Assembly (NCBI GenBank): GCA_037974965.1
Contig: JBBPFI010000002.1
Location: forward strand, 682,001-746,000
Source of the DNA: Dacryopinax spathularia
Taxonomy: Eukaryota > Basidiomycota > Dacrymycetes > Dacrymycetales > Dacrymycetaceae
Direction of reading: 5' to 3'
DNA length: 64,000 nucleotides
Part shown: positions 25,513 to 64,000 of the stretch, piece by piece
How positions within the stretch are numbered: position 1 is the stretch's first letter
Layout of the letters: every line of letters begins with the position of its first letter
Notes under the pieces: model-generated
The model's database searches: none
What the model saw: only the letters and a program-made list of their open reading frames with translations
What the model was told of the DNA's origin: nothing
Program-made: the position numbers and the translations under genes

Positions 25513-25529
25513 TTAGACAGAGTCGACTG
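25513..25529 (-). repeat. Right terminal inverted repeat of pogo element
   Basis: TTAGACAGAGTCGACTG, the exact complement of the left end, followed by TA at 25,530-25,531. Confidence 0.95.
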
Positions 25530-26575
25530 TATCTGCATTGTGTCCAGCCTTACCCAGCGTATCCCGCGATCTGAGGAAAATCCTGTGAATCACAGCATGT
25601 CCCGCGATTTGCATCACATCCCGCGATCTGCATCATGTCCTGCATTACCCAGCATATCCCGCGATCTGAGTGGGATCCTGTGAATCGCAGCGCATCCCAC
25701 GATCCGCATCGTGTCCTGCGATATGGAATCAATCCCACAAACCACACCACATCCCACCAACTGCTCAATGTCCTGCAGTGTCCAGCGCATCCCGCGATCT
25801 GAGGGGGATCCTGTGAATCGCAGCGCATCCCACGATCCGCATCGTGTCCTGCGATATGGAATCGATCCCACAAACCACACCACATCCCGCCAACTGCTTG
25901 ATGTCCTGCAGTACCCAGCATATCCCGCGATCTGAGTACCATCCTGGCAATCGCACCGCATCCCACGATCCGCATCGTGTCCTGCGATATGGAATCGATC
26001 CCACAAACCACACCACATCCCACCAACTGCTTGATGTCCTGCAGTACCCAGCGCATCCCGAGATCTGAGGGGGATCCTGTGAATCACAGCGTATCCTGCG
26101 ATCTGAGGAAAATCCTGTGAATCACAGCATGTCCCGCGATCCGCATGACATCCTGCGATCTGCATCGTGTCCTGCAGTACGCAGCATATCCCGCGATCTG
26201 AGTACCATCCTGGCAATCGCAGCATATCCCACGATCCGCATCGTGTCCTGCTATCTGCATCGTGTCCTGCGATATGGAATCGATCCCACAAAACACACCA
26301 CATCCCACCAACTGCTGGATGTCCTGCAGTACCTAGCGTATCCCGCAATCTGAGTACAATCCTGTGAATCGCAGCGCATCCCATGATCCGCATTGTGTCC
26401 TGCGATCTGCATCATATCCTGCGACATGAAGTCAATGCCACAAACCACATTACATCCCGCCAACTGCTGGATTTCCTGCAGTACCCAGCACATCCCGCAA
26501 TCTGAGTAGGATCCTGTGAATCACAGATTATCCAGCGATCTGCATGGTATCCTGTGAACTGGTCCACATCCTGGG

Positions 26576-44699: not shown

Positions 44700-45279
44700 T
44701 CGCCTCGTGTTGCAGAGGAGTCAGTTCAGTGTCATATCCCGGCGGGCCCCATGTTGATCGTTATACAATGCGGCACGTGTCCGGGACTGTGCTCTCATCA
44801 TAGAGGAGAAGTAAGAAGAAGGTGGCAACGCCCCCGGGACTACATTGCTAATGAGTCACGAATCAAGATCAGATAGGGGCGAGCCTAACTGACCAATGAC
44901 ATCAACACTGCATGTCCTCCTCCAGCTGAGAGTCGCACTGGCCAGACAACCATAACTCGCAAGGCTCACAGATCGATCAGATCATGCTCTTCAAGGTTGC
45001 TACCGCCGCTTGGTGCAATCCCGATCGTGGCCGAGGCCAAATGGGCGAGGGCGCACAGCATTCTCAACTCGCGCTTTCGATGTTGAGAATGAGCCTTGTT
45101 GGAATGTCAGCGTCCAATATTTTTGCATTCCAGTCGGGCAACGGGGCGACCAGGTGAAACAGAGCGTCGTCAAACCAACATACTTGCACATCTCAGCAAA
45201 TTGCTCGGGCGAAGAAGCGAAGTTTCTCCCCAAGTCACTGCGTTCAAGGGTCCGTAGGAGACCCGAAGTGTAGGCGCGT
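44700..45279. other. Intergenic, left flank of copy A
   Basis: About 580 bases. A minus-strand frame at 45,233-45,000 (FASSPEQFAEMCKYVGLTTL) has protein-like composition but no recognised family. A GTGATGGTCCCGTACGCGG palindromic stretch at about 45,278-45,310 may mark the end of copy A. Confidence 0.3.
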
Positions 45280-45379
45280 GATGGTCCCGTACGCGGAGGT
45301 ACGGGCTGTCACAGCCACAGGGACCATAGGGGAAGGGGAGTGTAGCCCGGGTTAGGGCACACTCCCCAAGGTAGGAGCC

Positions 45380-45565
45380 TCTCTTTTTTTTTAAAGTACA
45401 AGTTTTTTATTGTATCTATTAATTGTGTAGTACAAGTAGATACAAAAAAATTGTAATTAATGAAATACAATTATTTTTAAAAATTTGACCTACAAGAAGC
45501 GCGCGCGAGTCCTTGTAGGGTCCCTACAAGCACCTACGCGCGAGTCGTTGCAGGTCACGTGGCTA
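45380..45565 (+). repeat. Left subterminal AT-rich / CTTGTAGG block of copy A
   Basis: AT-rich tract with attgtatctattaattg and tacaagtagatac, then CCTACAAG, CTTGTAGG and CTACAAG within GCGCGCG. The inverse of this pattern is found at 57,181-57,380. Confidence 0.55.
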
Positions 45566-45677
45566 GGGACTCACCGTAGCCTCGAGGCCAACTCATGCCA
45601 GCGCCTACGCTAAGTCCCCAGCTCGTCGTCTACGCCGACGACACCACCACCTTCCCCCCGAACACCACCGCCCACAC

Positions 45678-45775
45678 CACCACCTTCCCCACCACCTTCC
45701 CCACCACCACCTTCCCCACCACCACCTTCCCCACCACCACCTTCCCAACCACCACCACCTTCCCCAACTGTTCCC
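45678..45775 (+). repeat. (ACCACCTTCCCC)-type minisatellite
   Basis: About eight imperfect copies of ACCACCTTCCCC / ACCTTCCCC. Translations on both strands are low-complexity. Confidence 0.85.
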
Positions 45776-46157
45776 CCCTCCACTCGACTCCCACCTTACC
45801 TCTTCCCAGGGCCCGACGACGACGACGACGACCTCAAGCCGCGACCGAGCAGACCTCTTTTTGGAGGGTTGCAGAACAAGACACACGAAGACGAACGACG
45901 AGCTCGAGCTCGAGGACGACGTCACCGAACCTCTGCAAGAGTTGAGGTCGACGTCTCGTCCTCACCCCGAACGCAGCCAAGCAAGAGCTGCGACGAACCG
46001 ATCGTTTCCTACCGTTCGTTACGATAACCCACCAGCGGGTTGTTCTACACGTCGAGCGTGTAGAACGAGCAAGATTCGATATATCCGGAGCGGGTTAGAG
46101 GTTGTAGAGCGCTCTTGAGGTACGTACAGTTAGTCCCATGGCGAGAAATCGCCACAT

Positions 46158-48130
46158 ATGCTGACGTTTCGCACAGATATGACATTCGCAACGTGGGAGA
46201 CCGGCTTTCGCAACGCCCCACGCGAGCGCACCGAGTATGAGGAGAAGGTAGCGGCTGAGCTGGGTTTGCAGGTCGTCAAGTCAACGCCTGCAAAGGTGGA
46301 TGGTAAGTTCGTTAATTGGAATTGTCATTACTCTAACTAACGACATTCCCAGATCCGCCACAAGCCAACTTCAGCGGGTCAAGACACTTTACGCTGTACG
46401 ACCGTTGGCACAAAGACTACGCCCACCGCTTCCTCAACCAACCCAGCACCCTCCGCAGGCGTGTCGACAACGAGACCCTCGCCATGTTCTCCATCGAACA
46501 GTTCCGCACCGCCCAGATCGAGGACGCTGCCGATCTGTTCAAGACATCAACATATGCGGAGCGGAAGACTCGCTTCCTCGACCTTCGCCAGCGATTCCTG
46601 GCGACCCAGAGTGGCCAGGGCGAGGACGAGCTCGCGTTCGTCGCCGAAGACCACGCCAAGAACATGTGGGCGCGAAGTCGACTCGATTGGACCGTCTACG
46701 CCCAGCCGTACGACCCCAAACGGCCCCATCGTCCGTATTGCGAAGGTCCACCGCCAGACGCCACGAACGCCATGGTCTGGTGGGCACCCCACCAGCTCCT
46801 CTGGTTCAGCCCGGTCTCCGTCAAAGGGGCTGCACCATGGACTCGCGGAGAGCTTGAGCAGCTCTATGGCGGCATGGCTGGCTTCCTCAATGCCTGGTGG
46901 GCGAAGACTCTGTGCGACGCACACGATCACTTCCTCAAGACGGCTACCGGCCTTCTCCGCCAGTACGGGGACCATGATCCCATCAAAATCGCATACGGCG
47001 ACCTCAGCAAGTTCTGGGGCGCCAATTTCAACATCGAAAAGCGGGATCTCTTCGATTGCATGACGTACGAGATGGGCAGGCTTGTGTGGCTTCGTGCCCA
47101 AGCCAAAGTACGCGATCTACACGGGATCGTCAACTTCCTGCTCGCCCGCCTCCACCCCAACCCCCACACCCACGACAACCTCCCCACCGTCCACAACTAC
47201 GTGGGCGTCCGTGTAGCCAAGCTCGGCAAGGACGACGCGCCTGAAGACCTGCCAGCAGATGTCTTCGCCAACCTCCTGCACGATGGCGTCCCCGTCCTCC
47301 TGCCCCAGCTCGACCACAGCAAGCTGGAGATTCGTCCGGACGGTACCAGGTGCCCTGCACCTTGGAAGGACCGCAACCTGACCCTCGAATGGGTCAAGAA
47401 GACGCGCAAGTCGATCTACGACGCGCACATTGCGGCAGGCGGGGAAAAATTCGACTACGAAGCCAACGCCATCTCGCCCTATGCCAAGACGCGTGAGCAA
47501 GCTCGTGGATCGAGCAGGAAGGGCAAGAGAAGCCGTCCAGAGTCAGACGAGCCAGCAGCCGGGAGCAGCAAGGCTCGGAAGCTGGATGGCTTCTTCGGCA
47601 AGGTCAGGCAGCGCGTCCACAACCTCAACCAGTCTGGCGAGACGTGGACGCCTGGGATCGGTCGTCCACAAGTCCGATACGCGAGAGAACCGGGAACTGC
47701 TCCGGATGGCATTCAGCTGCCTCCTCCGCCTCAGCAGCAGCAGCAACAGCAGCAGCAGCAGGAGCAGCAGCAGGAGCAGCAGCAGGAGCAGCAGCAGGAG
47801 CAGCAGCAGGAGCAGCAGCAGGAGCAGCAGCAGGAGCAGCAGCAGCAGGAGCAGCAGCAGCAGGAGCAGCAGCAGCAGGAGCCGCTCTTCCTTCGCGAGA
47901 CTCCTCTGCCAGACGGACAGGCTGGCCCCTCCCGGTTCCCTCGCTATCCCTCCCCCTCCCCTCCCTGGTTCGACTCTCGCACACCAGAGCCGCCTCGTCT
48001 CACGCCAGTTCCCTTATTCCTCGCCGACACCCCACCTCCTCCAGCACAGCCCGTCCGTCGCATCAATTTCAGCGACAAAGCTGCCTGGGCTGAGCTGCTG
48101 GCCAAGCTGAGGGCCAAGAGGGAGCAGTAG
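46158..48130 (+). CDS. Unknown 640-residue protein of copy A, Gln/Glu-rich tail
   Basis: Two exons (46158-46302 and 46353-48130; intron 50 nt, GTAAGT...CCCAG) join in frame to 640 residues. The first ~430 residues look like a folded helical protein (FTLYDRWHKDYAHRFLNQPS, KNMWARSRLDWTVYAQPYDP, MVWWAPHQLLWFSPVSVKG). A basic nuclear-type signal (RKGKRSRPESDEP) and GFFGKVRQR follow. Then comes a (CAG)n-based Gln/Glu tract (47,731-47,880), then Pro-rich sequence and a short helical end (DKAAWAELLAKLRAKREQ). I recognise no domain. Position as first gene of the element, with the transposase 314 bp downstream on the same strand, suggests an element-encoded accessory or captured gene. The matching gene of copy B would lie beyond the window. 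Confidence 0.7.
47731..47880 (+). repeat. (CAG/GAG)n coding microsatellite
   Basis: Fifty near-perfect CAG/GAG triplets giving a Gln/Glu tract inside the gene above. A second, independent Gln/Glu tract lies in the transposase at about 48,945-49,215. Confidence 0.9.
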
Positions 48131-48443
48131 CGGGGTTTTCTTTCCTCATAGGTGCATTTTCATTACTAACTAAATTACTGATACTAACTTGGCATACAGC
48201 TAGTTTTAGATCGTACTGTTCTTTTAGTAGGTTAGATATGAATACAACCCGTTAATACCAGCATGCACGAGTGGTTCCCCGGAGAACGATGGCCTTTTCG
48301 GGCACGAGCGTGACTTGGGACCGATTGGGTAAGAATCTTACCATACTAGGCAGCATCCTGGGAGGATCTGCCTGGTCTGCGTGCTTTGAGTCCCACGACT
48401 CAAAACGAGGACCAGACAGGTCTTCCTTCCCCATTCCCTGGAG

Positions 48444-49177
48444 ATGCCTCGGTCAGGCGCCAAGGGGAGGATTGTAGGGGTCAAGAAGTCGTCTGTAAGT
48501 GGGTCGATGATCATTAGAGTCCTACTAACCTACTGTACAGCACGAATATCAACGCAAGGCACTTGAGAGATGCACCTGCCCACTCTGCAAGTCAGTTCAT
48601 CCCGATGGGCAAGACATCAACAAGGTCAAAAAACGCGAACACGAACAACGAGAGCGCCGTGTGTCGAGATGACCAAATCGAACTCAAGCGCCGAATGCGA
48701 TTGCCACGCCAAGCGCAATCCCACGCGAGCACGTCCTCACACAGCTGATGGACGCGCTGTTCGAGCAGACGGATGTGGAGATGGGGGAGGTGGAGAGGGA
48801 GGAGGAGTTGATGAGGGAGCTGGGAGGGTTGGAGTTGGGCGAAAGGGAGGAGACGAGTGGGAGGGGAACGCGCACAGAGGGGGAGGGAACGGACGAGATG
48901 GAGGATAGCTGGGAGACTGCTCCAGTGTGGGAGCCTCTGCCTGAGCAGCTGCAGGAGGAGCAGCAGGCGCAGGAGGAGCAGCAGGAGCAGCAGCAGGCAC
49001 CGGAGGAGCAGCAGGAGGAGCAGCAGGCACAGGAGGAGCAGCAGGCACAGGAGGTGCAGCAGGAGGAGCAGCAGGCACAGGAGGAGCAGCTGGAGGAGGA
49101 GCAGGCGCAGGAGCTGGAGGAGCAGCACGAGCACCAGCACGAGCACCAGCAACAGCACGAGCACCAGCAACAGCACG

Positions 49178-49212
<35 letters not shown>

Positions 49213-52200
49213 GACCAGCAGCCGCCTCAGCCGCCTATGCCACCCTCCGAAGACGACACGCTGGGCAGCATGCAGGAGGTGTACACCAGCCTGCACGACG
49301 CGTCTCTAGTGCGTGCTGTGGCCCTCCTGCTGGTGTTCGCACACGCGATCTACCACCTCCCCTTCGCCGCCTGCAACCTCTTCGCCAACGTGCTGTACGA
49401 CGTCTTGCGACGCGCCGGAATCGACACGCAAGGCGGACCTCGAACGCTCACGACGATCTACAGTCGTCTGGGCATTGAAGATCGATTTGCAGTCAAGGTC
49501 GTCTGCAAGCGGTGCTGGTCGGTCTTCAGAGGTCGATTCGCCGAAGAAGAGGAAGTAGACGCGGACGCCGCCCAAGACCTCTGTTCAAGATGCGGAGAGT
49601 CGTTGTATGAGCCAGTACTGGGCTCAGACAAGGTAGAGGCGCGACTTCGAGCGCCATACGACTCGCTGGCACGACAGCTCCGTGCCCTTCTCAAGGAACC
49701 GGCATTCGAGGACGCCTGCGAGTCTTACCTCGCCAAACAGCCGGGGCCCGATGGCACTTACAGCACCATCTACAACGGCAGCGTTTGGCGCACTCTCAAG
49801 GACGCGCAAGGCAAGCCATTCTTCGCAGCCGAGAGCCTGGAGCCTGGGGAGCTGCGACTGGGCATTATAATCGGATTGGATTGGTAAGTCTGCCTACAGC
49901 CGCTATGGAACTCTCGCTGACGAGAAACCAGGTTCACTGCCTTCACATCCATCGGTGCGCCTGCCTACTCTGCAGGTGCGCTATCGGTCTGCGTGGCAAA
50001 CCTTCCCCCCATCCTTCGGTAAGTATCCTTGACTGTTGACGTGCGCGTAACTGACTGACTTTGCCAGATTTCGCGTACACAACCTGATCCTCGTGCTGAT
50101 GACGCCAGGACCGAAAGAGCCGAATGGGGATGAGCTGGCACGCTTCCTGGAGGAGTTTGTGGATGAGCTGGTGGCGTTGTATGCGCGAGGGATGATAGTG
50201 AGGACGCCGAGGTATCCTGCAGGTGCGCCCCAGTCGTCTTGCCTTCTCTGAGCGTCGCTGACTTGGACGTCAGGTCGATTAGTACGCGTTGCGGTCGTAG
50301 CTGTGGCCTGTGACCACCCAGCACTCTGCAAAGTGTGTGGGTTCCCAGGCCACAGCTCTCGCAAGCGTCCCTGCACTCAGTGCAACGTAGAGACGGCCTC
50401 TCTTGGGGACGAGGCTGGCTACGATGTCAGGAGTGAGTCCTTACTCCTACTCTGTATTGACGCAGTGCTAACGTTTCTCTAGAGGTGTCCCTACTCGATG
50501 GCGAGGCCCACAAGCAGCGGGGACGCGACTATCGGGCATTGGAGAGCGACAAGGACCGGGAGAAGTTCTTCAAGGAGAAGTTCGCCCGTTGGTCTGAGCT
50601 CTCCCGGCTGAGCTACTTCAACCCGGTGACGATGGCGGTCATTGACCCGATGCACACGTTCTTCCTGGGTGAGTCCGCTGCCTGTGTACCTGACGAAGCT
50701 GACATCTGTTCAGGTATCATGCGACACCTGTGGTTCAACGTCTGGGTGCTTGGGGGCAAACAGAAGAAGCCCATCTTCCGCAAGAACACGGCTGCCAAAG
50801 AGCGCAAGCTTGAGCTGGTCAAGGAGGTGATTCGCTCGGTGAGTTCCTACGCGACTTCATTGCCTGAGCGCACTCAACGTATCCAGTGTGAGATGCCCAA
50901 GTGGTTTGGGCGCCTCCCTGCCGAGGTTGGGTCGCCTGCGGGTGGCTCGTTGACCTCGGACGAATGGAAGACGATGTTGTTGGTTGTCGGCCCTCTGTGT
51001 GTAAGTCTCTGTGACATTCTATCTCTTATTCACCCTGCTAACTACTCTGGAAACAGTTCCCCTACATCCTCAAGCAGCTCAGCGTGGCCGACGACCTCGC
51101 TTCTCAAGGACAGGCCCCGGCAGGGGCGGGAACTTGTTTCCTGCACCTTGCCTGCGCCTGCAAGATCATGCTGCAACGACAGGTCACGGAGGAGGAGCTG
51201 GAGCGGGCGAGCGAGCTGTACAGGGAGTTCTACAGGAGCTTTGTACAGGTGAGTCCTCTCACTTCAATACATGCGCATATGCTGATGAGTCTGCAGATGT
51301 TCGGCCAAGAAAACCTTACACCGACCTTCCACTGGCTCGTTCACATGCCAGAGCAGATACGAAGATACGGCGCCGTTCACAACATCTGGACGTTCATCTT
51401 CGAGCGGCTCAACAAGGAGCTGAAGAGCACGGCGACCAACAAGCATGGGAAGGGGAAGATGGAGGAGACGTTTGTGCGAGAGAGACAGAGGAGGGAGAGG
51501 ATGAGACTCCTGGTGCGTGTACTGTGCTCAGGGAATATAATCATTACTAACTACAAGTACAGCTTCGCGTCCTGAGAACGCAGGACGCAGATCCTTGCGC
51601 TCAGAGCACCGCACAGAGGATCACCGAGCACCTCGAGCAGGCCCAAGGCAGGGGCACGCTCGCTACAATGGCAGCGCTCGAACGCGAGCAGGAGGCTGCT
51701 GATCAGGACTGTGAGTACGGTCCTCCACCTTCTTTTATACACACTGACTTGGCCCAGATCGCCTCCCTTTCGGTCTGAGGCAACCCAAAGGCAATCGTAC
51801 GCTGCCCAGGCCAGCTCTCAGGCAGCTCGCAGCGCACTACGCTGCTCAAGCACCCGATCGCCCACTAGCCATCCTGCGCGACACGGCATCCTGCGAAAGA
51901 CCCCACGTTGGCTTTGTGTGCGATCAGGGTGCCTATTACAACACAGTGGTTGTACAGGGACGGCGCGTAGATTGCAGCGCGGATCGCAGCCTGCCTCAGC
52001 ACAATTCGCTCGTCGTGCTCGTGCAGGACGGGCGGAGATGGGTGGGCGAGCTCGAGGAGCTCTTCCTGCACACGCAGACCTCTCTGCAGATGTCTTGCAG
52101 ACTGGCCAAGGTGCGCTGGCTGGTAAGAGCCGAGCATACTGATCTTGAGCCTCTCTACGAGCCCTTGTAAGGGCAGTCCATTTCCCTGCCAAACTCACTC

Positions 52201-52388
52201 ACTGATCGCTTTCACATTAGCCCTGAACTCGAGGTCGACCTTTGGGAGTACGACCAGTACTTAGAATCCGGTGAAGGGGGACCGGACCAGTACGTCTTGG
52301 CAGAAAGACTCGTGGGGTCGGCTGCTCGAGTGATCCTCGAGATTGGCGAGCACGATCGCGTGTGGGCCACGATAGCTCTGTACCGCGT
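48444..52388 (+). CDS. Tnp2/CACTA-like transposase, copy A
   Basis: The gene has many exons. The first joins are exact: 48444-48494, 48541-48660, then 48745-49883, with later introns of 45-51 nt (for example 51,249-51,296). The N-terminus has a zinc-finger-like CTCPLCK (C28, C30, C33). A Gln/Glu tract follows, then a folded region with paired cysteines (VVCKRCW...DLCSRCGE), the segment RPCTQCNVE, and the family hallmark YFNPVTMAVIDPMHTFFLG near 50,620-50,670. Next come WFNVWVLGGK, GGSLTSDEWKTMLLVVGPLC and FHWLVHMPEQIRRYG... FERLNKELK. These match transposase family Tnp2 (Transposase_21) of CACTA elements, which cut and paste the element. The last recognised exon ends at 52,388 and a final short exon is likely. 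Copy B is a clear homologue. Confidence 0.8.
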
Positions 52389-52947
52389 AAGTCCACTCGC
52401 TCAATCCGGTTTCCATTCACTGACATTACTATATAGTAGATATAATGAATACAAATTATTATTACTATTATATAAAGCTACTCGTCCCCTGTCCCCATTT
52501 CCACGCGCCCAGACCTCTTTTTGGAGGGTTGGGCGGCATTTCCCCTTCGCCTTAGACATCCTCAAGGAACGCCGGCAATGCTATCATTGTCAGGCCCTGA
52601 TTCTTCCAATGCCTTCTCAGGGGTAAGTCTTCCCCCGATCATCTACTATCTAATCTATCTAATCTACTCCGCAGTCCCTGGCGATCAGCTTCTCTCAGAG
52701 AAGCTCTCCCCCGCATACCCAAACAGGTAAGGCGGCAATGAAATGGGAGGCGCCAAAGACTGACCCTGTCTTCTGAAGTCATCGGCACACCGCCTCTCTC
52801 CATCGTCCGAACAGTTTCGTCAGCCGGCACAAGCTCGGCAGTCAGGTAAGTGTCGGCCTTCCCTCCTTCTTCTGTAGCTCCCTGACCGCCTTCGCAGCTA
52901 TCAGAAGCACCTCAGCAACAACAACAGCAACCGCAACAGCCAGCAGT

Positions 52948-53404
52948 ATGTTCACCGCCCTTCGCCGCCCTGTTGCCAACTCAGTTGGCCTTCGTCTCGC
53001 GCCCCGCCTCACTCGCATTGTGCCCACCGCCGCTGTGGGCCGCGTAGCAAAGATCGGCATTCGTATCGGGGATGGCGAGCCTGCCAAGCAGGCGATTGAG
53101 CGCATGAGCCTTCGGGCTCGTGCTTCTAAGGTGAGTTTCTCTTTCGGCGTGGATTAATCTACTCACCTTAATGCAGATTGCCCTTCGTTGGGGCTCGGGC
53201 ACCCACAAGGGCCTCATGGCGCTCGGTGCCGGTCTCGTCGCCGTCTATGGCGGCTATCGTTTCATTTGCGCGGAGCTCGCGCGCCTGAACACCGCCCTGC
53301 ACGACTACGAGGATATCAGGGAGCGAGTTCCTCGTGTTTACGAGGATCTGAAGGCGGCGGGGAAAGCGGTTTGGGCGTGGGGTAAGAGGGTTATCGGGAA
53401 ATAA
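52948..53404 (+). CDS. Small protein with mitochondrial-type presequence and one membrane helix
   Basis: Two exons (52948-53130 and 53177-53404; 46-nt intron GTGAGT...ATGCAG) encode 136 residues. The first ~45 residues are Arg-rich, contain no acidic residue and alternate with hydrophobics (MFTALRRPVANSVGLRLAPR), typical of a mitochondrial targeting peptide. A membrane segment (LMALGAGLVAVYGGYRFIC) follows after residue 70, then an amphipathic charged helix (RERVPRVYEDLKAAGKAVWA) and a basic end. No family was recognised. The free-standing unit U copy lacks this gene, so it was either gained here or lost there. Targeting is inferred from composition only. Confidence 0.6.
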
Positions 53405-53754
53405 AGATTTTCATTAGTATTGTGAGTTTCAATTGCCCACGTCAGACCGTTTACTAACTACTTCTACAGAGATTAACTAGTTCTACAGCACCGCTCCGTC
53501 TATAAGTGTAAGAATGGCTCGAAAATGGTGACTAATGTTCCTCTATTCTCTTAATGAGTTGCAGGCGCGTGCCTGCTCCTTTGTTGTTCATTTCCACTCG
53601 TACTCGTGCGCTAAGGCGCCGAGTACTCATCGTTAACTTGCGATATCACCCGGGCAAGCCCCAACTACAAGAGGAGACGAGAGAACTCGCTATGACTGGT
53701 GTAGACCCACTTGGGACCACTTTCTGGTGGGCCCAGGCGGGTTCTACGTCTGTA

Positions 53755-53883
53755 TCATCAGCTTCTTCCTCTTCCTCTTCTTCTTCTTCATCATCCGCAT
53801 CTTCTTCATCATCCGCATCTTCATCTTCATCATCTTCTTCATCTTCATCTTCCTCTTCCTCTTCCTCTTCATCATCCTCATGA
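53755..53883 (+). repeat. TCT/TCA/TTC pyrimidine microsatellite
   Basis: (TCTTCC/TCATCT)n low-complexity tract within unit U. It encodes poly-Ser or poly-Glu/Asp by composition. Confidence 0.9.
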
Positions 53884-54093
53884 AACTCATTTGCTAACCC
53901 ACATCCAGAGCCAACAGAACGACCCAGCACTAGAAGGAATCCGAACCAGGTGAGCCCGCACGGTTCTATTACTCTCTAACTAAAGCGAACTACAATTCTA
54001 GGCCAGATCAAGGAGGAAGACGCCTCCTACACTCCCTTAAAGCCCTCGCCCTTGCCAAGACTCGGTCTACCCGCTGCTACGCACTCGGGTAAG

Positions 54094-54252
54094 TCCCTCC
54101 CTCTCCCTCTCCCTCTCCCTCTCCCTCTCCCTCTCCCTCTCCCTCTCCCTCTCCCTCTCCCTCTCCCTCTCCCTCTCCCTCTCCCTCTCCCTCTCCCTCT
54201 CCCTCTCCCTCTCCCTCTCCCTCTCCCTCTCCCTCTCCCTCTCCCTCTCCTC
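54094..54252 (+). repeat. (CTCCCT)n hexanucleotide microsatellite
   Basis: About 26 near-perfect CTCCCT units directly after a splice-donor-like GGTAAGTCC. The other unit U copy has a short, imperfect form here, so the tract expanded in this copy. Open frames over it (Leu-Pro, Arg-Glu, Gly-Glu repeats) are artefacts. Confidence 0.97.
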
Positions 54253-54344
54253 CGGCACGACTTCGCCGTCCAAATTCGTAAGTCCATCCCCTTCGAACTC
54301 CGCCCAAACGACTTGCTGACGTCTCAGCAGGTGCGACAGAGGTA

Positions 54345-54488
54345 AGTGCGCTCTCTTACCTCTGCCGAGTTCAACGCGCACTGACTACGTTGCACTACGT
54401 AGCCACTGCGTAGTCCGAGTCGCCGCCCATTCGCGTACTTAAACGCACCTTCCGGACGACTTCCTCCTCCAAGACGCCAACCACCACC
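54345..54488 (+). promoter_or_regulatory. Conserved upstream block of unit U small gene (nested copy)
   Basis: GTTGCACTACGTAGCCACTG, CGTAGTC and TACTTAAACGC precede the ATG at 54,489 with the same spacing as in the block at 40,130-40,265. The TACTTAAA box may serve as the TATA element. Confidence 0.6.
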
Positions 54489-54791
54489 ATGCAGTTCGCT
54501 CGCGTCTTTGAAGGCATCCGGGGCTTTTTCAAGGTAAGTAAGGATTACTTTTAGCTGTCTTTACTTACCTTGTAACAGCTCATCTGGGGCACAGCACCTT
54601 CGTTCGCCGGCCTGCTGACATTCGCAGGCCAGGTCAAGGATCTCATCGCGGACATCAACCAGATCATAAGCGGCCTGCAAACGTTGATGCAGGGGATCAT
54701 AGCAATCAGAGGGCTGTGGAGGGAGTTGAGGGATGGAGGGGAAAGGGGGGGAAGGGGGGAAGGGGGGGAAAGGGGAAATAACCATTTGTAA
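54489..54791 (+). CDS. Small helical protein of unit U, 85 residues
   Basis: Two exons (54489-54533 and 54579-54791; 45-nt intron GTAAGT...AACAG). The first 55 residues are hydrophobic/amphipathic (ARVFEGIRGFFKLIWGTAPS, FAGLLTFAGQVKDLIADINQ, IISGLQTLMQGIIAIRGLWR). The end is a Gly/Glu/Arg tail from a purine-rich tract. It is homologous to the 117-residue protein at 39,678-40,076, though its first exon lacks that protein's clear membrane segment. Possibly membrane-associated; function unknown. Confidence 0.5.
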
Positions 54792-55320
54792 CTGAGATTT
54801 CTCAGTAATCTTCTCTAATCTTTCCTGTGAGCGTTTCCAAGTCGTTCGCACTAATTTCATTACTAACTACTTTCGCAGCATTGTAACTTACAGATTGTGC
54901 TCATCTCTCGTCTCCCAACTCATTCCTAATGGTACTTCCCTTTCCCCTCTCTTCCCTCCTTTCGTACTTGTTCCGGCCTTGCTCTAAGACCGCTTTCTGG
55001 CGGGTTTGGGCAAGGTCATTAATATCGTCATTATCATTGTCATTGTCATTGATATTGACAATGTTTTCGTAGGCGTCCAAGGGTCTGCGAGGTAGGAGTG
55101 TTTCGACACTTATCCATGTGAGGATTAGTTTGTCGAAGCATTCTTACAGATCGATATGCTTTTGCGAGCACCGGGCTTTCTCACTCGCTGCTAAGTACTG
55201 TCACTGTATCTCATTCTGAAGTAACTAACTACATTTTACAGGCTTTTCTATACTACTTAGGAGACAGACTAACTACGTAAGTTCTTTTTTTTTGGGTTTT
55301 TTATTGGGTACTTCGGCTGA
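54792..55320. other. Right part of unit U and junction to copy A
   Basis: No gene is supported here, but blocks are conserved with 39,090-39,560. A short frame at 54,932 contains the AAGACCGCTTTCTGGCGGGT motif. The ttattgatattgacaatgt region is AT-rich with ATTGTCATTGTCATTG repeats at about 55,035-55,060. Confidence 0.45.
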
Positions 55321-56890
55321 TCAATCCTCTGAGAAATACAGGTCCTCGTCGATCCAGGGGGCATTTCCCTCAATCGCCTGCTGGAAGATCTCCTCGTTAG
55401 GGAAGCATTCAGGTCTGCCCTGAACGGGCTCCCAATGCACCAAGTCGCCGATATTAGACTCTTCCCACTTCGGATCAACCATCCACTGCCAAGGATCCAC
55501 TCCAGGCAGCCGATCCGACTCGCGATTCAAATTCGCGCGCATGTAGTGAATCTGCGATTTCGTTCCTTTGCCCTTCCCTTTGCTGATCCTGGCCGGTTTC
55601 CCCTTCTTCTTAGAGAGCCTTTCGAGCTGCTGAAGCAGCTGAAATACCTGATGCAGGTGAGTAAGTTTCTTCCCTTGTCCTTCACTGCAGCTGCTTACCG
55701 ACTTCTTCATCCAGGCCGGACGCTGGACCTCCACGACGGACACCTCGTCAGCAACCTGGGCTGCGCTCATACCCAGATTCTTGAGTACCGATCCCCGCCA
55801 ATCGGTACCATCCTCCATCTCGCCGTCAGACACTTGATCGGGCATCCACTCGTGGTCGAGGAGCTCGGTTGGATCCCATTTCGCCTTGTTGATAAACGCG
55901 CGGATGGTTTGCTTGTCCTTGAGTTGGTCGGAGTACTTCAGCATGAGGTGAGCAAGATGGATCTGCGGATGAGTAGAGGGCTTACCACTTTCCGCCTACT
56001 CAAACGCCTGTTTTGCGACTTGTGAGTTTCATTGTTGTCTACTCGCTCGGATTCTGGCTCAACCCCATCCAGCCATTTGCCCTTCATCGTACTCCACGAG
56101 CCCTTCGCGATTACTTCAAGGGCGTCTGATTTGAGGAACTCGGGAGAGCTAAAGGTGTCTGCCTATAGAACGATAAGATAAGTATATGCTCTCTCATAGT
56201 GCGGTATGCTCACATTAATGGTGCGTAGGACGTTGTCGATCGCCTTTTTTATGATGGCCATGTTATCGGGTGCGTTGACGTTTTTAGTGAAGTCGGGGAT
56301 GAGAAACGGCTCAATGCGACCTTCGGGTAGGATAAGGGCTGTGTCGCCCTTGCTGATCATGAGGTTGTACTCCTCATACTCCACAATGGTATACATTTCC
56401 TTTCTGATGTTGTTCTAGCTGACAGTTAGACAGGTTGTTTGACCGCGAAGAGACGAAAAGGACTCACTTGCAACCAGGTACGGTCGTCCTTCTGCTGCTC
56501 GCTCAGCTCCGTCTTCTTCTTCTTAGCAATCTCTTTCCCAGTCTGATCCCCTGGCTCACGCCGCCTCGCTCGCTTCTTGCGAGCTGACTTGGCCGCCTGG
56601 CCTTGTACCAGCTCGCGGAGCTGCTTGAGCTCGGCCTGAAGCGCGTCGATGCGCTCGTCATCGCCTCCCCAGCCATCCGAGGTACGCTGAGTAGGCTGTG
56701 CTGGTGCGAAGGGCCTTTGCTGACGCGCGCGTAGGCTGCTGGAGACTTTTGGTGCGAGGGGAGGCGCTTGCATTAAGGAGGAGAACGGGTCACTGTCACT
56801 GGCTTGGGTAAGTGCCAAGTATATGCGCCCAAACGAGTACTTACCTTTGGCGTAGCTCGCGCTCGTCGCTGTCAAGTCGTTCGAGCTCAT
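55321..56890 (-). CDS. Accessory protein of copy A (homologue of the copy B gene at 57,904)
   Basis: The start is at 56,890 (MSSNDLTATSASYAK), followed by a 42-nt intron (56,803-56,844). Next comes a disordered Pro/Gln part, a coiled-coil stretch (DERIDALQAELKQLRELVQG) and a strong basic signal (KKRARRREPGDQ ... KKKK). Downstream exons carry NNIRKEMYTIVEYEEYNLMI, FLIPDFTKNVNAPDNMAIIK, then RAFINKAKWDPTELLDHEWM, VVEVQRPAWMKKS, a basic KGKGKGTK patch and WQWMVDPKWEESNIGDLVHW, stopping at 55,321. Each block has its counterpart in the same order in the copy B gene, so both are real. A nuclear DNA-binding partner of the transposase, analogous to TnpA of plant CACTA elements, is possible but is inference. 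No known domain was recognised. The join near 55,940-56,030 is uncertain. Confidence 0.65.
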
Positions 56891-57180
56891 ACTCAGTGGA
56901 CGACATCTCGAAGGGAATCGGAAAGCGGGCGGGAGAAGCTGAGGCTGGTCGAGGGGGAGAAGGGAAAGAGAGAGGGAAAGAGAGAGATGTATGCACGATA
57001 GGACGTGCATAGGATAGGCCAATAAATCCCGTCTACCCTCCTCTAGCCCGAGACGAAGGAAGTCGACATAGGAGGGACTACGATAGCCTTTTTGGGTATC
57101 GAGTACCCCCGCGTACGCGCGCTTCCCGGCCGATCATGTACAAGTGCCTGCGCGAAACGTCGCGCACCCCTCAAGCAAGT

Positions 57181-57380
57181 AGATAGAATAATATTTTTGT
57201 ATATTAAATAAACTACATTAATTGTATCTAGTTGTATCTAAAGTACAAAAAAAAACTCCCCAGGCCAGGATGGGGTGAGTATCCGGGCCTGGAGAGAACT
57301 TCCTCATACGCGACCTACAGTCACGTGCGGGGACTTTCTTGTAGGCGCCGTACGCGCGCCTACAAGACCCTGGGGATAGG
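57181..57380 (-). repeat. Right subterminal AT-rich / CTTGTAGG block of copy A
   Basis: Contains attgtatctagttgtatcta, AAAGTACAAAAAAAAACTCC, then TTTCTTGTAGGCGCC and GCGCGCCTACAAGACC, mirroring 45,380-45,565. Confidence 0.55.
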
Positions 57381-57449
57381 GACCCCTGAACGCGGTGAGT
57401 CCGTTCCACGCACGGACCAGGTTGTTCGCCCGCTTCGGCTGAGCCTGTT

Positions 57450-57903
57450 GCGAGCACGCCAAACATGTTCAGTCACCGCATTTAGGGTCCGACATTAATG
57501 GGCCAGGATAGGGAGTTATGGGTCACCTGACCCAGGTTAGAATAGGTTATATAGACTAGAGTAGTATATAGTGTTTTGTACTACCATTTGATGGGTATCC
57601 TAGAGTGTAGGATACCTCTAGGATACACCTTGTATTGTAATATAATTAATACAATATATATTAACTATATTTTTTACAGTCGCGCGCGCGCTGCGAGACG
57701 CGTCCCATGATGTCGCTAGGATTCAGGATCGCCGATTATCTTTCCTGATCCGGTATCATTGTCATTCCTCCGCCCAAACTACTCTAGGATATCACAGACA
57801 ACGTCGTGTCCGCCCTCTCCCCCCTATATATCCCAGCCCATCAACGCAGAGCATATATCCTCCTCCTTCCCCTCCTTCGACCTCACTTCAACTCGTTCTC
57901 GAC
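57450..57903. other. Junction between copy A and copy B
   Basis: An AT-rich stretch with short inverted repeats (GGGTATCCTAGAG / CTCTAGGATACAC; TTGTATTG...CAATATAT) separates the divergent accessory genes. Alternating GCGCGCGCGC occurs at about 57,682. A TATATAT at about 57,831 is probably the TATA box of the gene at 57,904. Confidence 0.45.
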
Positions 57904-59703
57904 ATGGCGCCCGACCCCATCTACTTCGACCCTCAGCTCGGCTTTGATGCAGACGCCGGCACTCGTGAGACGATCGCGTTACGACACGAGCTGAGCTTGA
58001 TGTTGATGGGCATGACACCGGAGCAAAGGATGGTGGAGCTTGAGCGTATGAGTCGGATCTTCGCGGACATGCGAGATGAGGAAGGGTGAGTGGTCTCCTC
58101 GACGCCCAGCACAACTACATCACTCACCTAGCTCCTGCTAGATCTCCAAGGGGCGCGTCCTCCACACCCCAACGGCGGACCGATCGTGCTCTCCCTCCTC
58201 TCCCTCCTCCCCCTCCTTTCTCTCCTTCTCCTAGCGCTTCCTCGGCATCCTCTGGGTTCATGAATACCCCGCAAGGCTCGCCAGAGGTTCCTGGGCCGCG
58301 TTTGGCTGAGACCGACGATGGCAACAAGGCAGACTCGGAAGCGTTGCCCCTCATTCGTCGCACGAGGACCGGCAGCAAGTCCCCCCTCGCAAATCGCCAG
58401 AAGTCGAGGTCGAGGCCGGTGCTGATTACGGCGGCGGAGATGACGTTGGGTCTGGCGGGTCCCGCCGAGCGTGGCCTAGCTGCGCTCGTGCCTCGGCAGC
58501 AGCTGAGCGAGGGTCACCTGCGGGTGAAGAACTACTTGATGGTAAGTCAGTGATTTGCCAGTAGGGTATCGGATTACTTACCAGTTGCAGGGCGAGGTTA
58601 GGAAGCAAATGTATGCTTTGATTGGCTATGAGGGAGGGATGATGCCCGACGAGTCCCTGCCGCTCATCGGGCTGCCTGGGCAATACCTCGTGCCGAACTT
58701 CTTGGCTGGCATTGCCGACAAGGCGAACGAGCTGATTCGGGCTCGTGCAGCCAGGATGGTGCTCGCAGAAGAGAATGTGAGTCCATCTGTCCGACGCCCA
58801 GCACAACTACATCACTCACCTGATGATGTAGAAGCATCCCGACCGCGTCTTTGAGCCATACAGGTCGGTGTGGCTGAAGAAGGTAGAGCTGGCGGAGCTT
58901 GCCAGGTCGTCTTGGCCGAACATGAAGAAGCTGTTCATGGAATGGCGCAGGCAGCAGGCGGATCCCGAGCTTCGCAATGGGCTTAAGGAACGGCAGATGC
59001 GTCGCAACAGTCGCAGGAATGGAGTGAGTGTGATGTAGTTGTGCTGGATGTCTGGTGGCTCACCTCAATCAGCGCGCCAAGCTGTTCTCCCATGGCTTGA
59101 CTAAGTTCTGCTTGGATAAGACGCTCGATGAGGCGAGCACGAAGCTGCTGATGGTTCATGTCGACTGGGTTGGAGAGGAGTGGAGTGCTGATGAAGATGG
59201 CGAGCAAAACGATCGTTGGCGGGATCTGCTGTTGGAGAAGGGCGCGATCAGTGCCAGTGAGAGAGAGGCGACTCACTTGCGCGTGTTTGAGGAGCGTCGG
59301 CCGGTTTGGATGGACATCAAGGTGAGCGTGCAGGGTATTCAAAGGATAGCAAATGGGTACTTACCATTGTCAGTGCTGGACGTGGATCAAGGACTTGATG
59401 TCGAATTACAAGGATCAGCGTGCTTCGACGAGCGGGTACCGTTACATCCGTACCCGTCGAGTCGACCTGGGACGGGTATCCCATCTCATGCCGTCACCCA
59501 CACCTTACGGGTTCATGCTGGATCCGAAGTGGAGAGAACAAGATCTCCCCAAAATGCGCAACTGGACACCGAGGACGGAGTATCCTTCCCACCTGGATGC
59601 GCACATCTGGGCGGCTGTGGTAGGACGTCCAGTGGTCGCCAAGGTCACGGGGGAGCGGAGGGGAGATGTAGGTGGGCTGGAGGACGGGGAGAGCGACTCC
59701 TGA
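57904..59703 (+). CDS. Accessory protein of copy B
   Basis: Six exons. Exon 1 ends at 58,085, followed by introns at 58,086-58,141, about 58,542-58,590, 58,777-58,831, 59,024-59,072 and about 59,323-59,372. A Pro/Ser-rich stretch (RALPPLPPPPPFSPSPSASS) and basic RRTRTGSKSPLANRQKSRSR precede the conserved blocks. Those are GEVRKQMYALIGYEGGMMPD, YLVPNFLAGIADKANELI, MVHVDWVGEEWSADEDGEQN, FEERRPVWMDIK and YGFMLDPKWREQDLPKMRNW, matching the copy A accessory protein in order. Function is unknown; nuclear, DNA-binding or transposase-partner roles are inference. Introns 1, 3 and 4 each contain the 20-bp motif described separately. Introns 1 and 3 are near-identical over 30 bp. Confidence 0.72.
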
Positions 59704-59809
59704 AGAGGAGTGATGTAGTTGTGCTGGACGGATCGGTGAACTGGATTGAAGACAGGTGAGCAAGCGAATCATGAGGCGTGCAGGGATGGCTTACTCATTC
59801 ATTGTTAGG

Positions 59810-62800
59810 TTACTCTATGCGCTGTGCTATCCCCTCCTCTATGAAGATCAACGTTAGCGTGAAAACCCAAAAAAAAAGAAAAGGAGCAAAAACCAAAAAA
59901 AAAGTCTCGCTCGTCGTGTTGATTAGATTGTTCGGCCGTTCTGTGATCGCCATTAGTATAGCTCTAATACAATCCTTATTGGAAACAGTACTTACCTTGC
60001 TGAGGCCGGTGGTGACCCAAATCTTCGTGCCACGGGTGGTGATGGTGCAACGAGCAGCCATGCCGCAGATGTCGTCCGCCGGGATGAGGAAGTCGGGGCC
60101 GAAGTCGCTGTCAGGCTCTTGATAGCGTCCATGCTGCCAGAAGTCGACTTCGAGCTCCGGGTATGGTCGATAGAGGTCCGCGTGATCAGGGGTCTGTTGC
60201 AAGGGGACGAGCCAGGCCACGAGTACAAAGAGAGGGAGCTCACCGAGCTCCATCGCCGTCTGGTGGTGCTCCAAAACGCCTCTGACCTCGCCGACCCATT
60301 GCGTGCCAGGCTGGAACTGGTATAGAACGAGGGAGTCGGATTTGGAGGGCTTGTCCTCCAGAGATTGGATGATGCGCTTGCCATCCAAGGAGAATTGACG
60401 ATAGAACTTGGCTCGGTTGGTGAGCCAGGTGCTATCGTGAGGGGCGGCTGGATCGCTGGGGAGATAGATGTTGATGTAGTTGTGCTGGCGTCGGTACCAA
60501 CTCAGGAGCATGTCCTGCAGTTGGTGGTCGAGGAAAAGCAGCTTGGGAGTGCCCAACGGGACGCAGCGTCGGGTACGATGCCTTTGCTGACCCTCGTCGG
60601 TGGCTTCGGCGGCCATAGCAGCCAGCGAGCCCGTACGAGCAATGTCGCGCGTGCGTTGCTGCAGCTCGCGGGCCAGTAGGCGGGCCAGCAGGTCTTCTTG
60701 TTGGTTGGCCAGTATGTTATTCTGGGATGTAGTTAGCTGGACGTCGGTGAAGGTGAGAAGGATGGGGCGCACCATGCGAGCCAGGCTCATCTCTCTCTTG
60801 AACTCCCTCGCAAACGTAATCTCGACGGCTCCACCCTTGTGCCCGTTGGTCTCAAAGCCCTTGAGGACCTTGTTGAGCCTCTCGAAGAGGAAGGTCCAGA
60901 AGCCGTGGACAGGGCCAAACCGTCGGATTTGATCGGCCATGTGGGTGATCCAATGGAAGGTGGGCGTGACGTTAGAGTCGCCATAGATCTGATATTGCGG
61001 TTCAGCGGGGTTGGGGAGAAGGGGGAGAGGGCTGGGATCATGTAGTTGTGCTGGATGGCGACGTCCAGCATAAACTACATCAGCTGTCCAGCACACACTA
61101 CATCACCGGGTGATGTAGTTGTGCTGGACGGGGGGCTCACCTGCACATACTCCTTGAAGAAGTCGACATAGAGGTCTGATGCTCGAACAAGCTCGCGTTC
61201 GGTGAGCTCTCGTCTGATATAGATCTTGAGCACGGTCGCCATCTTGAGATAGTTGCTGGCCGCTTCAGGGGGCAGTCGATCCCCTGCATCAAGGAGGATG
61301 GGGGGGAGCTGCATGCAATCAGTGGATGTCATTGCGGGCGACGGGTGATGTGCGTACCACAGCGGGTCCGTAGAGGACAGCCAGTGCACGCCATTCATCT
61401 GAGGTAAGACTCCCTCCTGCGGGCTCACCTATTTTGGTCGGCAGTCGCGCATACCAAGCGGGCATTTCGAACTGCGGCGGTGTGAGCTCGGTGGCAGAGG
61501 AGGCGTGGGAGCTCACCGTGGCCAACGCCTCATGGATCTCATCGAGCTCTCGGCGATTGCCTGCCTGTGTGCGAGCGCGCAAGATCTTGTTCTCCTCCTT
61601 GCCCCCGAGGATCCATACATGGTACCAAAGTGTCTTGGTTAGTCCTGGTAATGCGTGAGCAGGCGTGATGGTGGCAGAAGTGAGCACTCGCCTTGTAGAA
61701 ATGTGTGCATAGGGTCAATGACGCCCATGGTTACCGGATTGAAGTAAGGCAGACGGTGAAACTCTGACCATTGAGCACCGCACTGCGCAAAGTACTTGCT
61801 GATCGTCTTCTTGCTGGCGTTCTCTTCCTGAAGGCGATACATTCTTGCTCCTCGACGCTTGTGAAGTTCTCCATCTCGAGGTTGGGCAGCGTTGCGGTTC
61901 CATCCTTGAGTGAGCATAGACTGGCGGTCGATTTCGCACTGTGTGCATGGTTTCTGATTGTGCCGTTGATCGGCAAAGCCCAGCATCTTGCACAGGGCTG
62001 GGTGGTCGCACACTACTGAGATGATGGCAACGCGAACTCTTCGGCCTGTGAACAACACACCAGGTCAGTTGGTGTGATGTAGTTGTGCTGGACGTCAGGG
62101 ACGCACCAGCTGGGTGTGTGGGGGTAGTGATCTCGATTCCATCTGTCCATAGATGGAGGAGATCGTCGATGAAGGGGCGGAGGAAGCGTTGGAGCTGTTC
62201 GGCGTCCGGCTCCTTGGGACCAGGCAAGATCCCGACGATGCACAAGTTGTGCACTCGATACCTTCGTTCCGGGCTGAGGTTGGCGATGCATATCGAGAGA
62301 GGACCCGTCGAATGAGTCTCTGCTACGCTGGACTGGTTTGGGTTGAACCAGTCCAGCGATACAATCGCTCCCAGGCGCAGTTCGGCGTGTCGGGCTGCAT
62401 CCTCGCGCGAACGAGGAAAGAAAGGTGAGCCATCGGGTGCTTGTAAGTCCCTCCACACGCTGCCGTCTTGCAGGCGAGCGTAGACGTCTCTGGGGGACGG
62501 CGAGTCCAGATAAGACTCGCAATCCTCCTCGAAGCCGGGCTGAGCCAAGAACTCTGGCAACTGCAGAGAGAGAAGGTCGTAGGGGGCCTGTCGGCAAGCC
62601 CGAGGTATACCCGATTTGGGCGCCAGACAGTACAAGGGAGAGCTGCATCGACGGCACAAGCTCTGCCAAGCATTGTGAGGCCCAGCGGCGGCTTGGATCT
62701 CGCCCATCTCCTCGAGGAAGTCGCCGTCCACTTCCGCGACCTCGAAGTGCTCGAAGGACCAACACTGCGGGCACATCGTCTTGACGTCAAAGCGATCAGT

Positions 62801-63757
62801 GAGCTGCAATCGCTTGTACATCGTGTTGAGGGTGCGAGGCGGTGCCGAAGCGAGGCTGAATGTGTCTGCCGGTGGCAGGATGGCGAAGAACTCGAAGATC
62901 GCGTATACAATAGTGGCCAGGAAGGCGCAGGCGACATGAGGGAGTTGGTATCGTGCGTGCATGTGGAGGATGAGCAGGCAGAGCGCTCGCACGCCGGCGT
63001 TTGAGTGCAGAGCCAAGTAAAGGTGGAGCGGCTCCTGCCCAGGTGGTCGGAGCTGTGCCGGAGTGCGTGCCATGGACGCAGGTATGCCCAGGTCTTCCAC
63101 AGGTATACCGTCATCGTCTTGAGGGTGTTCCATGTCGAGAGGAACGGAGGGCGAAGGCAGGGGAGCAGTATCCACTGAGGGTTGGAGGGTAGAGGCGTCC
63201 TGCTGCTGGTGAAACGCGGCAGCAGCAGGAGAGATAGGAGGGGGAGGAGAGGGGGGAGGGGGAGGAGGCGGAGGAGGGGGAGGGGGAGGAGTCGGAGGAT
63301 TAGGAGGAGGGGCAGATAGGGGAGGTGATGTAGTTGTGCTGGATGTTGCACCAGCATAGGCGGTTGGGAGTGCATATGTAGTTGTGCTGGTCGTCGCCCA
63401 CGAATCCAGTCGTCCATCCATGGTCGACTCCGCAGCTCCTTCGCCGTGGATGACCTCCTGAAGGAGGTCGTCCATCTCGACATCGGCTTGATATCGATCA
63501 CTCTGCTCGACGCCAACGCCATGCCCAGGCGCGCCCCAATCTTGATTCGGAGGTTCCAGGGCGGGACATTGTGCACGCAAAGTGGCCATTGCCGCTGCGC
63601 GTTCGTGGTTGCGAAAGGCTTGATGAGCCCACGTTCGACCTTGGGGACGTGCAGGAGTTTTGCAAAGTGGGCAGATACATTGCTTCTCCTTCTTGCTCGT
63701 CGAGATGGCCTTGGGTCTTCCTCCCTGCTTGATCACACCTTTACGTGAGAGGAGCAT
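59810..63757 (-). CDS. Tnp2/CACTA-like transposase, copy B
   Basis: The start at 63,757 opens MLLSRKGVIKQGGRPKAIST, and a zinc-finger-like CICPLCK follows. Then come Pro-rich disorder, paired cysteines (MCPQCWS...LCRRCSS), LRLGAIVSLDWFNPNQ, CDHPALCKMLGF, KPCTQCEID and YFNPVTMGVIDPMHTF. Further on are WYHVWILGGK, GGSLTSDEWRALAVLYGPAV and FHWITHMADQIRRFG... FERLNKVLK. All are collinear with copy A and with the Tnp2 family. Two introns of copy A (after GLDW, and before FRVHNL) are absent here. The intron before the FHW block is 152 nt (60,989-61,140), against 48 nt in copy A, because it holds four copies of the 20-bp motif. Intron 62,046-62,106 also holds one. The last recognised exon ends near 59,990. 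The true stop is uncertain and may lie near 59,810. Confidence 0.78.
61040..61129. repeat. Cluster of four motif copies forming two hairpins
   Basis: Copies at 61,040 (+), 61,063 (-), 61,086 (-) and 61,110 (+) form two adjacent near-perfect inverted repeats with arms of 16-20 bp and spacers of 3-7 bases. The whole lies inside a transposase intron. Confidence 0.9.
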
Positions 63758-63810
63758 GGTGCTGGTGATGTAAGTGCTGGACGTCGGGGCGGGTAAGTTG
63801 ATGAGGCGCA

Positions 63811-64000
63811 CCTTGGCTAGTCAACCCTTTGCTCGTGCCCCACTCCTCCTATCCACCTCAGAGCCCCTTGCCACCACTCACACCAAGCCCCAAAGACTGT
63901 CCTGGACGCCGTTGAGTGAGTCGTGTGCTGTACACTCAGCCTTTGACTGAGGAGGTGAAGGGGTCGGCGATCTCGGGGAGAAGGACTTCGGCCAGGGTCC
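63811..64000. other. Window end
   Basis: No gene is supported upstream of the copy B transposase in the remaining bases. It is presumably copy B's internal promoter region. Confidence 0.4.

Follow-up and report, generated by a model that had tools for sequence, protein, structure and literature searches.

Dispersed, family-specific motif arrays in CACTA/EnSpm-type transposons of Dacryopinax spathularia: candidate binding sites of an element-encoded protein

In maize En/Spm, TNPA sites are repeated, occur in both orientations and are subterminal. For the VANDAL elements of Arabidopsis, which belong to the Mutator superfamily, passages of PMC5735166 describe short family-specific motifs in introns, intergenic regions and terminal non-coding regions, bound by each element's own VANC protein, and VANC is described there and in parts of PMC10398659 as removing silencing marks from VANDAL elements. 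Fungal EnSpm elements have CAC..GTG termini and a 3-bp target-site duplication (TSD) according to sections of PMC12730594, in which some EnSpm and Plavaka elements are stated to carry TET/JBP dioxygenases and element-borne genes are proposed to allow escape from methylation-based silencing. Here we analysed a 64,000-nucleotide stretch of Dacryopinax spathularia DNA (contig JBBPFI010000002.1, positions 682,001 to 746,000; the window), which contains most of a CACTA/EnSpm-type transposon, copy B, and a related complete element, copy A. Copy B belongs to a group of elements with family-specific arrays of 20–30-bp motifs (10–21 copies); many positions are conserved, the words at matching places differ between families, and no array was found in copy A. 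From the sequences, and by analogy with VANC, we consider it probable that these arrays are binding sites of an element-encoded, co-evolving protein with an anti-silencing-like role.

In the open-access papers searched we saw no such arrays reported for CACTA elements, VANC/VANDAL being the closest system; the available text of PMC12730594 does not contain the words 'subterminal' or 'accessory', and the 'motif' passages among 12 of 22 matching places concern proteins or termini. A first-pass annotation of the window had stated that no element of this kind was described, which is too strong in view of the VANDAL motifs bound by VANC, as far as the relevant passages of PMC5735166 go.

The motif of copy B and its genomic distribution

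With at most three mismatches, the 20-mer motif occurs nine times in the window, every match falling within 58104-63344 (100 shuffles give an expectation of 0.00), and at the same tolerance its 15-mer core, ATGTAGTTGTGCTGG, has 11 matches against 1.36 expected. Ten window copies of the core are exact (58106 to 63390; eight plus, two minus) and one more has two mismatches. Three extra copies with small indels, found by eye at ~61060-61084, 61087-61108 and 63764-63784, bring the total near the thirteen copies in both orientations that had been annotated; the repeat itself is thus real. Five further exact core sites lie in copy B beyond the window end (to C2:749821). The limits of the element, its two genes within the window and the motif sites are as follows.

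57474..64000 (+): copy B, CACTA/EnSpm-type transposon (C2:739474-749821, 10,348 bp), delimited by terminal inverted repeats (TIRs) and TSD; its right 3,821 bp lie outside the window
57471..57473: left TSD AGT; the right AGT stands immediately past C2:749821
57474..57487 (+): left TIR CACCGCATTTAGGG, paired with right TIR CACCGCATTTTGGG
57904..59844 (+): gene 1 (accessory gene), hand-made model of 7 exons, 496 aa (518 aa if the last acceptor differs)
58104..58123 (-): motif site in gene 1 intron 1; leftmost site, minus in 9/9 motif-bearing elements
58796..58815 (-): motif site in gene 1 intron 3; second site, minus in 8/9 elements
59030..59049 (+): motif site in gene 1 intron 4; absent from the C3/C12 copies of the element
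59663..59682 (+): degenerate motif site in gene 1 intron 6, its core carrying 2 mismatches
59710..59729 (+): motif site in gene 1 intron 6
59990..63757 (-): transposase gene with 5 or more exons, modelled provisionally at its 3' end
60471..60490 (+): motif site within transposase coding sequence, encoding QHNYI
61037..61056 (+): motif site in the transposase intron after aa 861
61110..61129 (+): second motif site in the transposase intron after aa 861
62074..62093 (+): motif site in the transposase intron after aa 551
63325..63344 (+): motif site in the N-terminal, low-complexity part of the transposase
63373..63392 (+): another motif site in the same N-terminal part

A 14-mer seed with at most two mismatches, applied to the whole element and read against hand-made gene models, gives 17 sites in copy B. 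Nine of them fall in introns, which make up 8.6% of the element (binomial P 3.3e-6), bearing out the annotated preference for introns; intergenic sites occur besides the intron and coding ones. Several motif pairs are palindromic, one of them perfectly over 36 nt. Introns 1 and 3 of gene 1 do share 30 identical bases around the motif (58100-58129 and 58792-58821), as had been noted. The coding site at 60471 is shared with the C3/C12 copies and absent from the elements C1, C5, C3b, C10, C12b and C17 (the copy A alignment does not reach this site). Family C12b carries its own motif three times at the place matching the 59030 site.

In the 29.2-Mb genome, searched with at most one mismatch, 40 of 42 matches to the core ATGTAGTTGTGCTGG lie inside the three copies of family B (38 exact and 2 inexact); the remaining two, both inexact, lie elsewhere, and none was found in elements of other families; the counts may be lower bounds. 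The first-pass annotation had proposed, as one possibility, a protein-binding site restricted to one transposon: the restriction holds, for a family of three copies, and binding would be a reading of the sequence pattern.

Different words at matching places in related elements

Searches by tblastn with one copy B and one copy A transposase frame gave 15 loci, A and B included, of which 12 were read (B, K3, K12, A, C1, C5, C3b, C10, C12b, C17, C9 and C12c); the unread ones lie on C5 (about 1.570 Mb), C1 (about 1.496 Mb) and C13 (about 0.240 Mb). With candidate ends ranked first by TIR likeness and then by TSD, ten of the 12 could be delimited, all ten with identical 3-bp flanks and with CACCGC or CACTGC at both ends. 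C9 showed no TIR pair, only local tandem words, and C12c one end only. The three copies of family B are 10.3–10.4 kb long with exact 3-bp target duplications, and the two outside the window are:

C3:377589-387973: K3, second family B copy, TSD ATT
C12:884171-894606: K12, third family B copy, TSD AAT

One dispersed 14-mer (at most one mismatch) is present in 10–21 copies in nine of the ten delimited elements and in three copies in copy A, while the best dispersed 14-mer of shuffled elements reached 2–3 copies (two shuffles per element). Since B/K3/K12 and C5/C3b are not independent, the nine motif-bearing elements count as six families. Five of these bear motifs different from that of family B, each of 20–30 bp, with 10–21 copies per element in both orientations. 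The consensus motifs are:

B/K3/K12: GTGATGTAGTTGTGCTGGACGTCG
C1: TGAGTTGTGTAGTTGTACCGACCGA
C5/C3b: GAAGTGATGTTGTTGTGTTGACCGGCGAAG
C10: TGTGATGTGATGTGAATACCGGACG
C12b: AAGTGATGTGATGGTATCGGGCG
C17: GGTGAAGTATTATGTTGGCGCATCTC

Local tandem expansions are seen in C1 (4 x 53 bp), C5 (4 x 102 bp) and C12b, with a pair in C17.

Each of these motifs is nearly confined to its own family. Genome searches, made at one mismatch or fewer except for C10 (two or fewer), placed 33 of 33 matches of the C5/C3b motif and 10 of 11 of the C10 motif in their own elements. Of 23 matches to the C1 motif, 19 lie in its own element and the other 4 in an unread C4 cluster; of 23 to the C12b motif, 18 lie in its own element and the other 5 in an unread C17 cluster. 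All 32 matches of the C17 motif fall at two transposase-bearing loci, the second of which is the unread one on C5 near 1.57 Mb. Reversed-pattern controls gave 0 for C1, C12b, C17, C5/C3b and C10 and 5 (1+4) for the family B core. The word of one family was never found in another family's elements in these genome-wide searches. The clusters on C4 (C4:1197750-1200026, GTTGTGTAGTTGTGCCG) and C17 (C17:357000-358659, mostly GTGATGTGATGGTGTCGG) hold variant words, with no transposase match listed, and are possibly non-autonomous elements with intermediate dialects.

Copy A served as a negative comparison:

45236..57397 (-): copy A, a complete related transposon of 12,162 bp with TSD AGT, in opposite orientation to B

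It has no match to the 20-mer in the window, in agreement with the annotation, and k-mer tests found no dispersed motif of its own, its top words of 9–14 bases being simple repeats and a TTACTAAC-type word. Likewise, the A-like C12c has no dispersed 13-base word beyond a TAGTTAGTAATGA-type word and local repeats. Copies A and B stand 76 bp apart in opposite orientation, both with TSD AGT, and at 54097-54250 of the window copy A carries 25.7 perfect copies of the hexamer CTCCCT.

We mapped sites in the motif-bearing elements, turned alike, with the 14-mer seed (at most two mismatches). In all nine, the first site is on the minus strand 603–771 nt from the gene 1 end, a further minus site lies at 8453–9579 (in B, between genes 3 and 4) and the last site is on the minus strand 242–429 nt from the other end. 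The second site, also minus, lies at 1253–1400 in eight of the nine (C10 excepted); it falls in gene 1 intron 3 (~aa 256) in B, K3, K12, C1, C5, C3b and C12b, and in C17 it could not be mapped onto the gene 1 protein. Intron sites were checked through the proteins, because the motif itself may anchor a DNA alignment. The intron after transposase aa 861 holds a plus site with the family's own motif in eight of nine elements (not C10; K3 and C17 approximate). Eight of nine elements also have a plus site at the intron after aa 551 or close to it. Its place is exact in B, K12 and C12b and approximate in K3, C1, C5, C3b and C10, in which the search ran on across the intron; the nearest C17 site maps before aa 499.

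The words at these places do not follow the places. In a 20-mer comparison of seven places in six elements (B, K12, C1, C5, C12b and C17, with one place lacking C17; K3, C3b and C10 left out; best of 13 offsets), words of different families agreed at 12.0/20 whether the place was the same (93 pairs) or not (558 pairs), against 18.9/20 within one element (120 pairs), a value inflated by construction since sites were chosen by likeness to the family's own word. Independent support comes from the genome-wide searches, in which no family's word turned up in the elements of another. Because other words often occupy the same places, introns and strands, and no B-type word with up to one mismatch is left in those families, each family seems to have undergone a concerted rewriting of an old array; the array looks old in position and its word replaced.

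Within family B the same word has persisted. The front 6.5 kb of copy B are about 59% identical to the other two copies, gaps apart (3713/6273 with K12, 3648/6234 with K3), and the 15-base core is exact in all three at six aligned sites (B 635, 1327, 2239, 3000, 3639 and 4603), which are six of the ten exact window sites. Of the other four window cores, 63328 aligns with a one-mismatch core in K12, and 59033, 61040 and 63376 are unpartnered. Turnover is visible where a single K3 site corresponds to two K12 sites, 45 bp apart.

Gene content and the gene 3-4 block

Copy B holds, from left to right, gene 1 (+), the transposase (-), gene 3 (-) and gene 4 (+), in models built by eye and with tblastn. 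The transposase matches Pfam PF02992 (tnp2, Transposase_21; E 9.5e-9, 35.2 bits against a cut-off of 28.6). Gene 1 homologues adjoin the transposase in other families, with only weak likeness in C17 and copy A; gene 1 gave no significant PDB match. A sub-threshold PD-(D/E)XK match in gene 4 exon 2 (E 0.011) was not used. Between B and K12, dN/dS is 0.29 for gene 3 and 0.28 and 0.14 for two gene 4 exons, so that by this comparison genes 3 and 4 look like real genes under purifying selection. PPxY/LPxY-type motifs were seen by eye in gene 3 (L010 1393-2487, plus other families) in all six families; presumably they resemble those of adaptors that recruit WW-domain ubiquitin ligases.

The segment of copy B from ~6900 to 10062 (C2:746373-749536), comprising genes 3 and 4 and the sequence between, is identical to K3 at 2935/3162 positions and to K12 at 2959/3161, far more than elsewhere in the element. 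On the right the segment breaks off sharply at the last motif palindrome (36/37 identities, followed by 16/40, in successive 50-column windows against K3); on the left the border is gradual, starting just upstream of the transposase start. The B transposase shares 54% amino acid identity with K12, 48% with K3, 53% with C1 and 52% with C5; the K3 transposase is a fast or decayed copy. In the transposase tree, bootstrap values bearing on B versus K3/K12 and C1 are 59 and 63, and a B+C1 grouping (p-AU 0.135) is not rejected. Motif identity thus goes with the gene 3-4 block, and transposase identity does not set B's relatives apart; the association is suggestive only, because common descent of the B and K transposases is not rejected either. 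Between copy A and C12c, a different gene at element positions 706-2496 of A (window 45941-47731; C12:728787-730577) is 92% identical in amino acids, and the segments over the transposase 42–88%. Side modules more than 90% identical beside diverged genes are thus seen twice, possibly exchanged or more conserved.

A Plavaka identity for copy B was rejected on its tnp2 match and on its ends: Plavaka has a PF18759 transposase and ends of TGT..ACA or CATCA..TGATG (end types as given in parts of PMC12730594), and none of the three scanned pieces of the copy B transposase matched PF18759. A separate transposon group within the window is represented by ORF 31155-32495, a Plavaka transposase (PF18759, E 6.5e-66).

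Readings of the arrays

We favour a reading in which the motif would be a DNA binding site for a protein encoded by the same transposon, motif and protein co-evolving. Recognition of DNA rather than RNA is suggested by the two orientations and the palindromic pairs. Candidate binders would be the products of genes 3 and 4, which evolve fast and lie in the block common to B and the C3/C12 copies, with gene 1 as second choice. By analogy with VANC and VANDAL, binding along the whole body, in introns and intergenic regions, could give a self-specific counter to host silencing, and the arrays probably represent an anti-silencing or activator system working in the same way in another superfamily. 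The likeness, measured against the VANC passages cited above, extends to family-specific dispersed motifs in non-coding parts, words that differ between related families, local tandem repeats and an accessory protein more variable than the transposase. Moreover, the C1 consensus holds AGTTGTAC, a VANC6 AC-type word, and the C17 consensus holds AGTATTAT, matching eight of the nine bases of VANC21 YAGTATTAY as given in those passages. Shuffled consensus motifs contained VANC words in two or more families at a frequency of 5e-5 (mononucleotide) or 1e-4 (dinucleotide; 20,000 shuffles each), a test chosen after the words were seen, so that this match is a lead only. The systems also differ: here they are CACTA/EnSpm elements with tnp2, the consensus is 20–30 bp long where VANC words, as described, have 8–9, positions and strands are largely conserved between families, and coding sites exist too. 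No DUF1985 (VANC) match was found among the proteins scanned, all from copies A and B. The same proteins gave no TET/JBP match, a difference from the TET/JBP-bearing fungal EnSpm and Plavaka elements; the CAC..GTG termini and 3-bp TSD that the available text gives for fungal EnSpm are common to the elements here.

Several observations weigh against the reading we favour. Five of the 17 copy B sites lie in coding sequence, which makes up 70% of the element, and family C10 deviates from the shared pattern at several places. A Pfam scan of copy B genes 1, 3 and 4 gave no match reaching the cut-off of its family, so that no DNA-binding domain is recognised in them. Frames of other families at the gene 3 and gene 4 places match B or K12 weakly (25–60% over 29–171 aa), and gene 4 exon 2 has dN/dS 0.79 between B and C5 at a saturated dS of 1.0, which leaves homology of these genes between families uncertain. 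A B + K clade has p-AU 0.185 and appears in 24% of 200 bootstrap trees; the three same-motif copies may thus form a single clade through common descent, and the case for a motif that follows the block is weakened accordingly. Finally, TNPA-like roles in transposition would likewise yield family-specific sites.

That last proposal, in which the motifs serve end synapsis and promoter activation or repression as in maize En/Spm and have spread incidentally through the body, is the alternative to which we give the most weight, as a minority possibility. The elements share the superfamily of En/Spm by TIR, TSD and tnp2 domain, with CAC...GTG termini, and the outermost sites keep narrow ranges in 9/9 elements (603–771 nt on the gene 1 side, 242–429 nt on the other). 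The sites are not confined subterminally, however: they are mostly internal, run through the body with many in introns of several genes, and leave the first 600–770 and last 240–430 nt, the stretches in which one would look for subterminal sites, free of 14-mer seed matches at up to two mismatches. The two proposals overlap, as TNPA is reported in parts of PMC10398659 and PMC1636069 to activate methylated Spm. An element acting at the RNA level, as a splicing signal, hairpin or small-RNA source, would account for the many intron sites and for palindromes able to fold in RNA; with both orientations relative to transcription, intergenic sites as well and no obvious reason why host RNA machinery should favour family-specific replacement, we regard it as quite improbable.

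A further explanation is an introner-like motif, the other possibility named in the first-pass annotation, or one that otherwise spreads itself by copying into introns. It is consistent with the 30 bases shared by introns 1 and 3 of gene 1, with the 59030 and 61037 sites that have no aligned partner in the C3/C12 copies, and with local tandem gains (C1, C5 and a 45-bp repeat in K12); introners as described in parts of PMC9860276 likewise place a repeated sequence in introns. Here, however, the motif is not scattered over the genome's genes, 40 of 42 genome matches lying within elements, non-intron sites exist, and matching protein positions have introns in families with another motif, which argues that copying of the B word did not recently make them. 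Recent spread is unsupported because the C3/C12 copies hold the exact core at 6/10 window sites despite their divergence; relatives' introns with the motif at the same sites, which the annotation itself had named as speaking against its proposal, were largely found. As a recent process it is largely refuted by the shared positions and the genome-wide restriction, and we hold this explanation to be very unlikely. A distinct possibility is that the introns derive anciently from an ancestral motif. Least credible of all is a binding site for a host chromatin or replication factor, which would suit the wide distribution of sites along 10 kb and fits poorly with six different motifs in one genome, each nearly absent elsewhere.

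A bolder version of the co-evolving binding-site reading, to which we give only a small chance, holds that CACTA elements carry private motif dialects read by their own protein, that a change in the reader gene leads to the rewriting of all sites, and that motif and reader can be exchanged as a block, like the one that B shares with the C3/C12 copies at about 93% identity. The reader fold might even be related to VANC, given that two dialects contain VANC target words, amounting to a second, non-plant anti-silencing code. If the favoured reading is true, another superfamily, and probably another kingdom, would have reached the same solution as plant VANDAL/VANC. Joint change of a DNA-binding protein and its dispersed sites is an open question in cis-trans co-evolution, and six dialects in one small genome, with known ends and largely matched sites, would allow a direct test of a protein and ~15 sites changing specificity together. 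The proteins concerned, in which these cut-offs revealed no known domain, could represent new sequence-specific DNA binders.

Elsewhere in the window, positions 14871-26561 form a tandem array with periods of 133, 152 and 266 bp, whose basic unit is 19 bp long and whose GC skew is strongly negative. A gap in this array contains a Tc5/pogo-type DDE transposase ORF at 23588-25366 (-) (PF03184, 6.3e-36).

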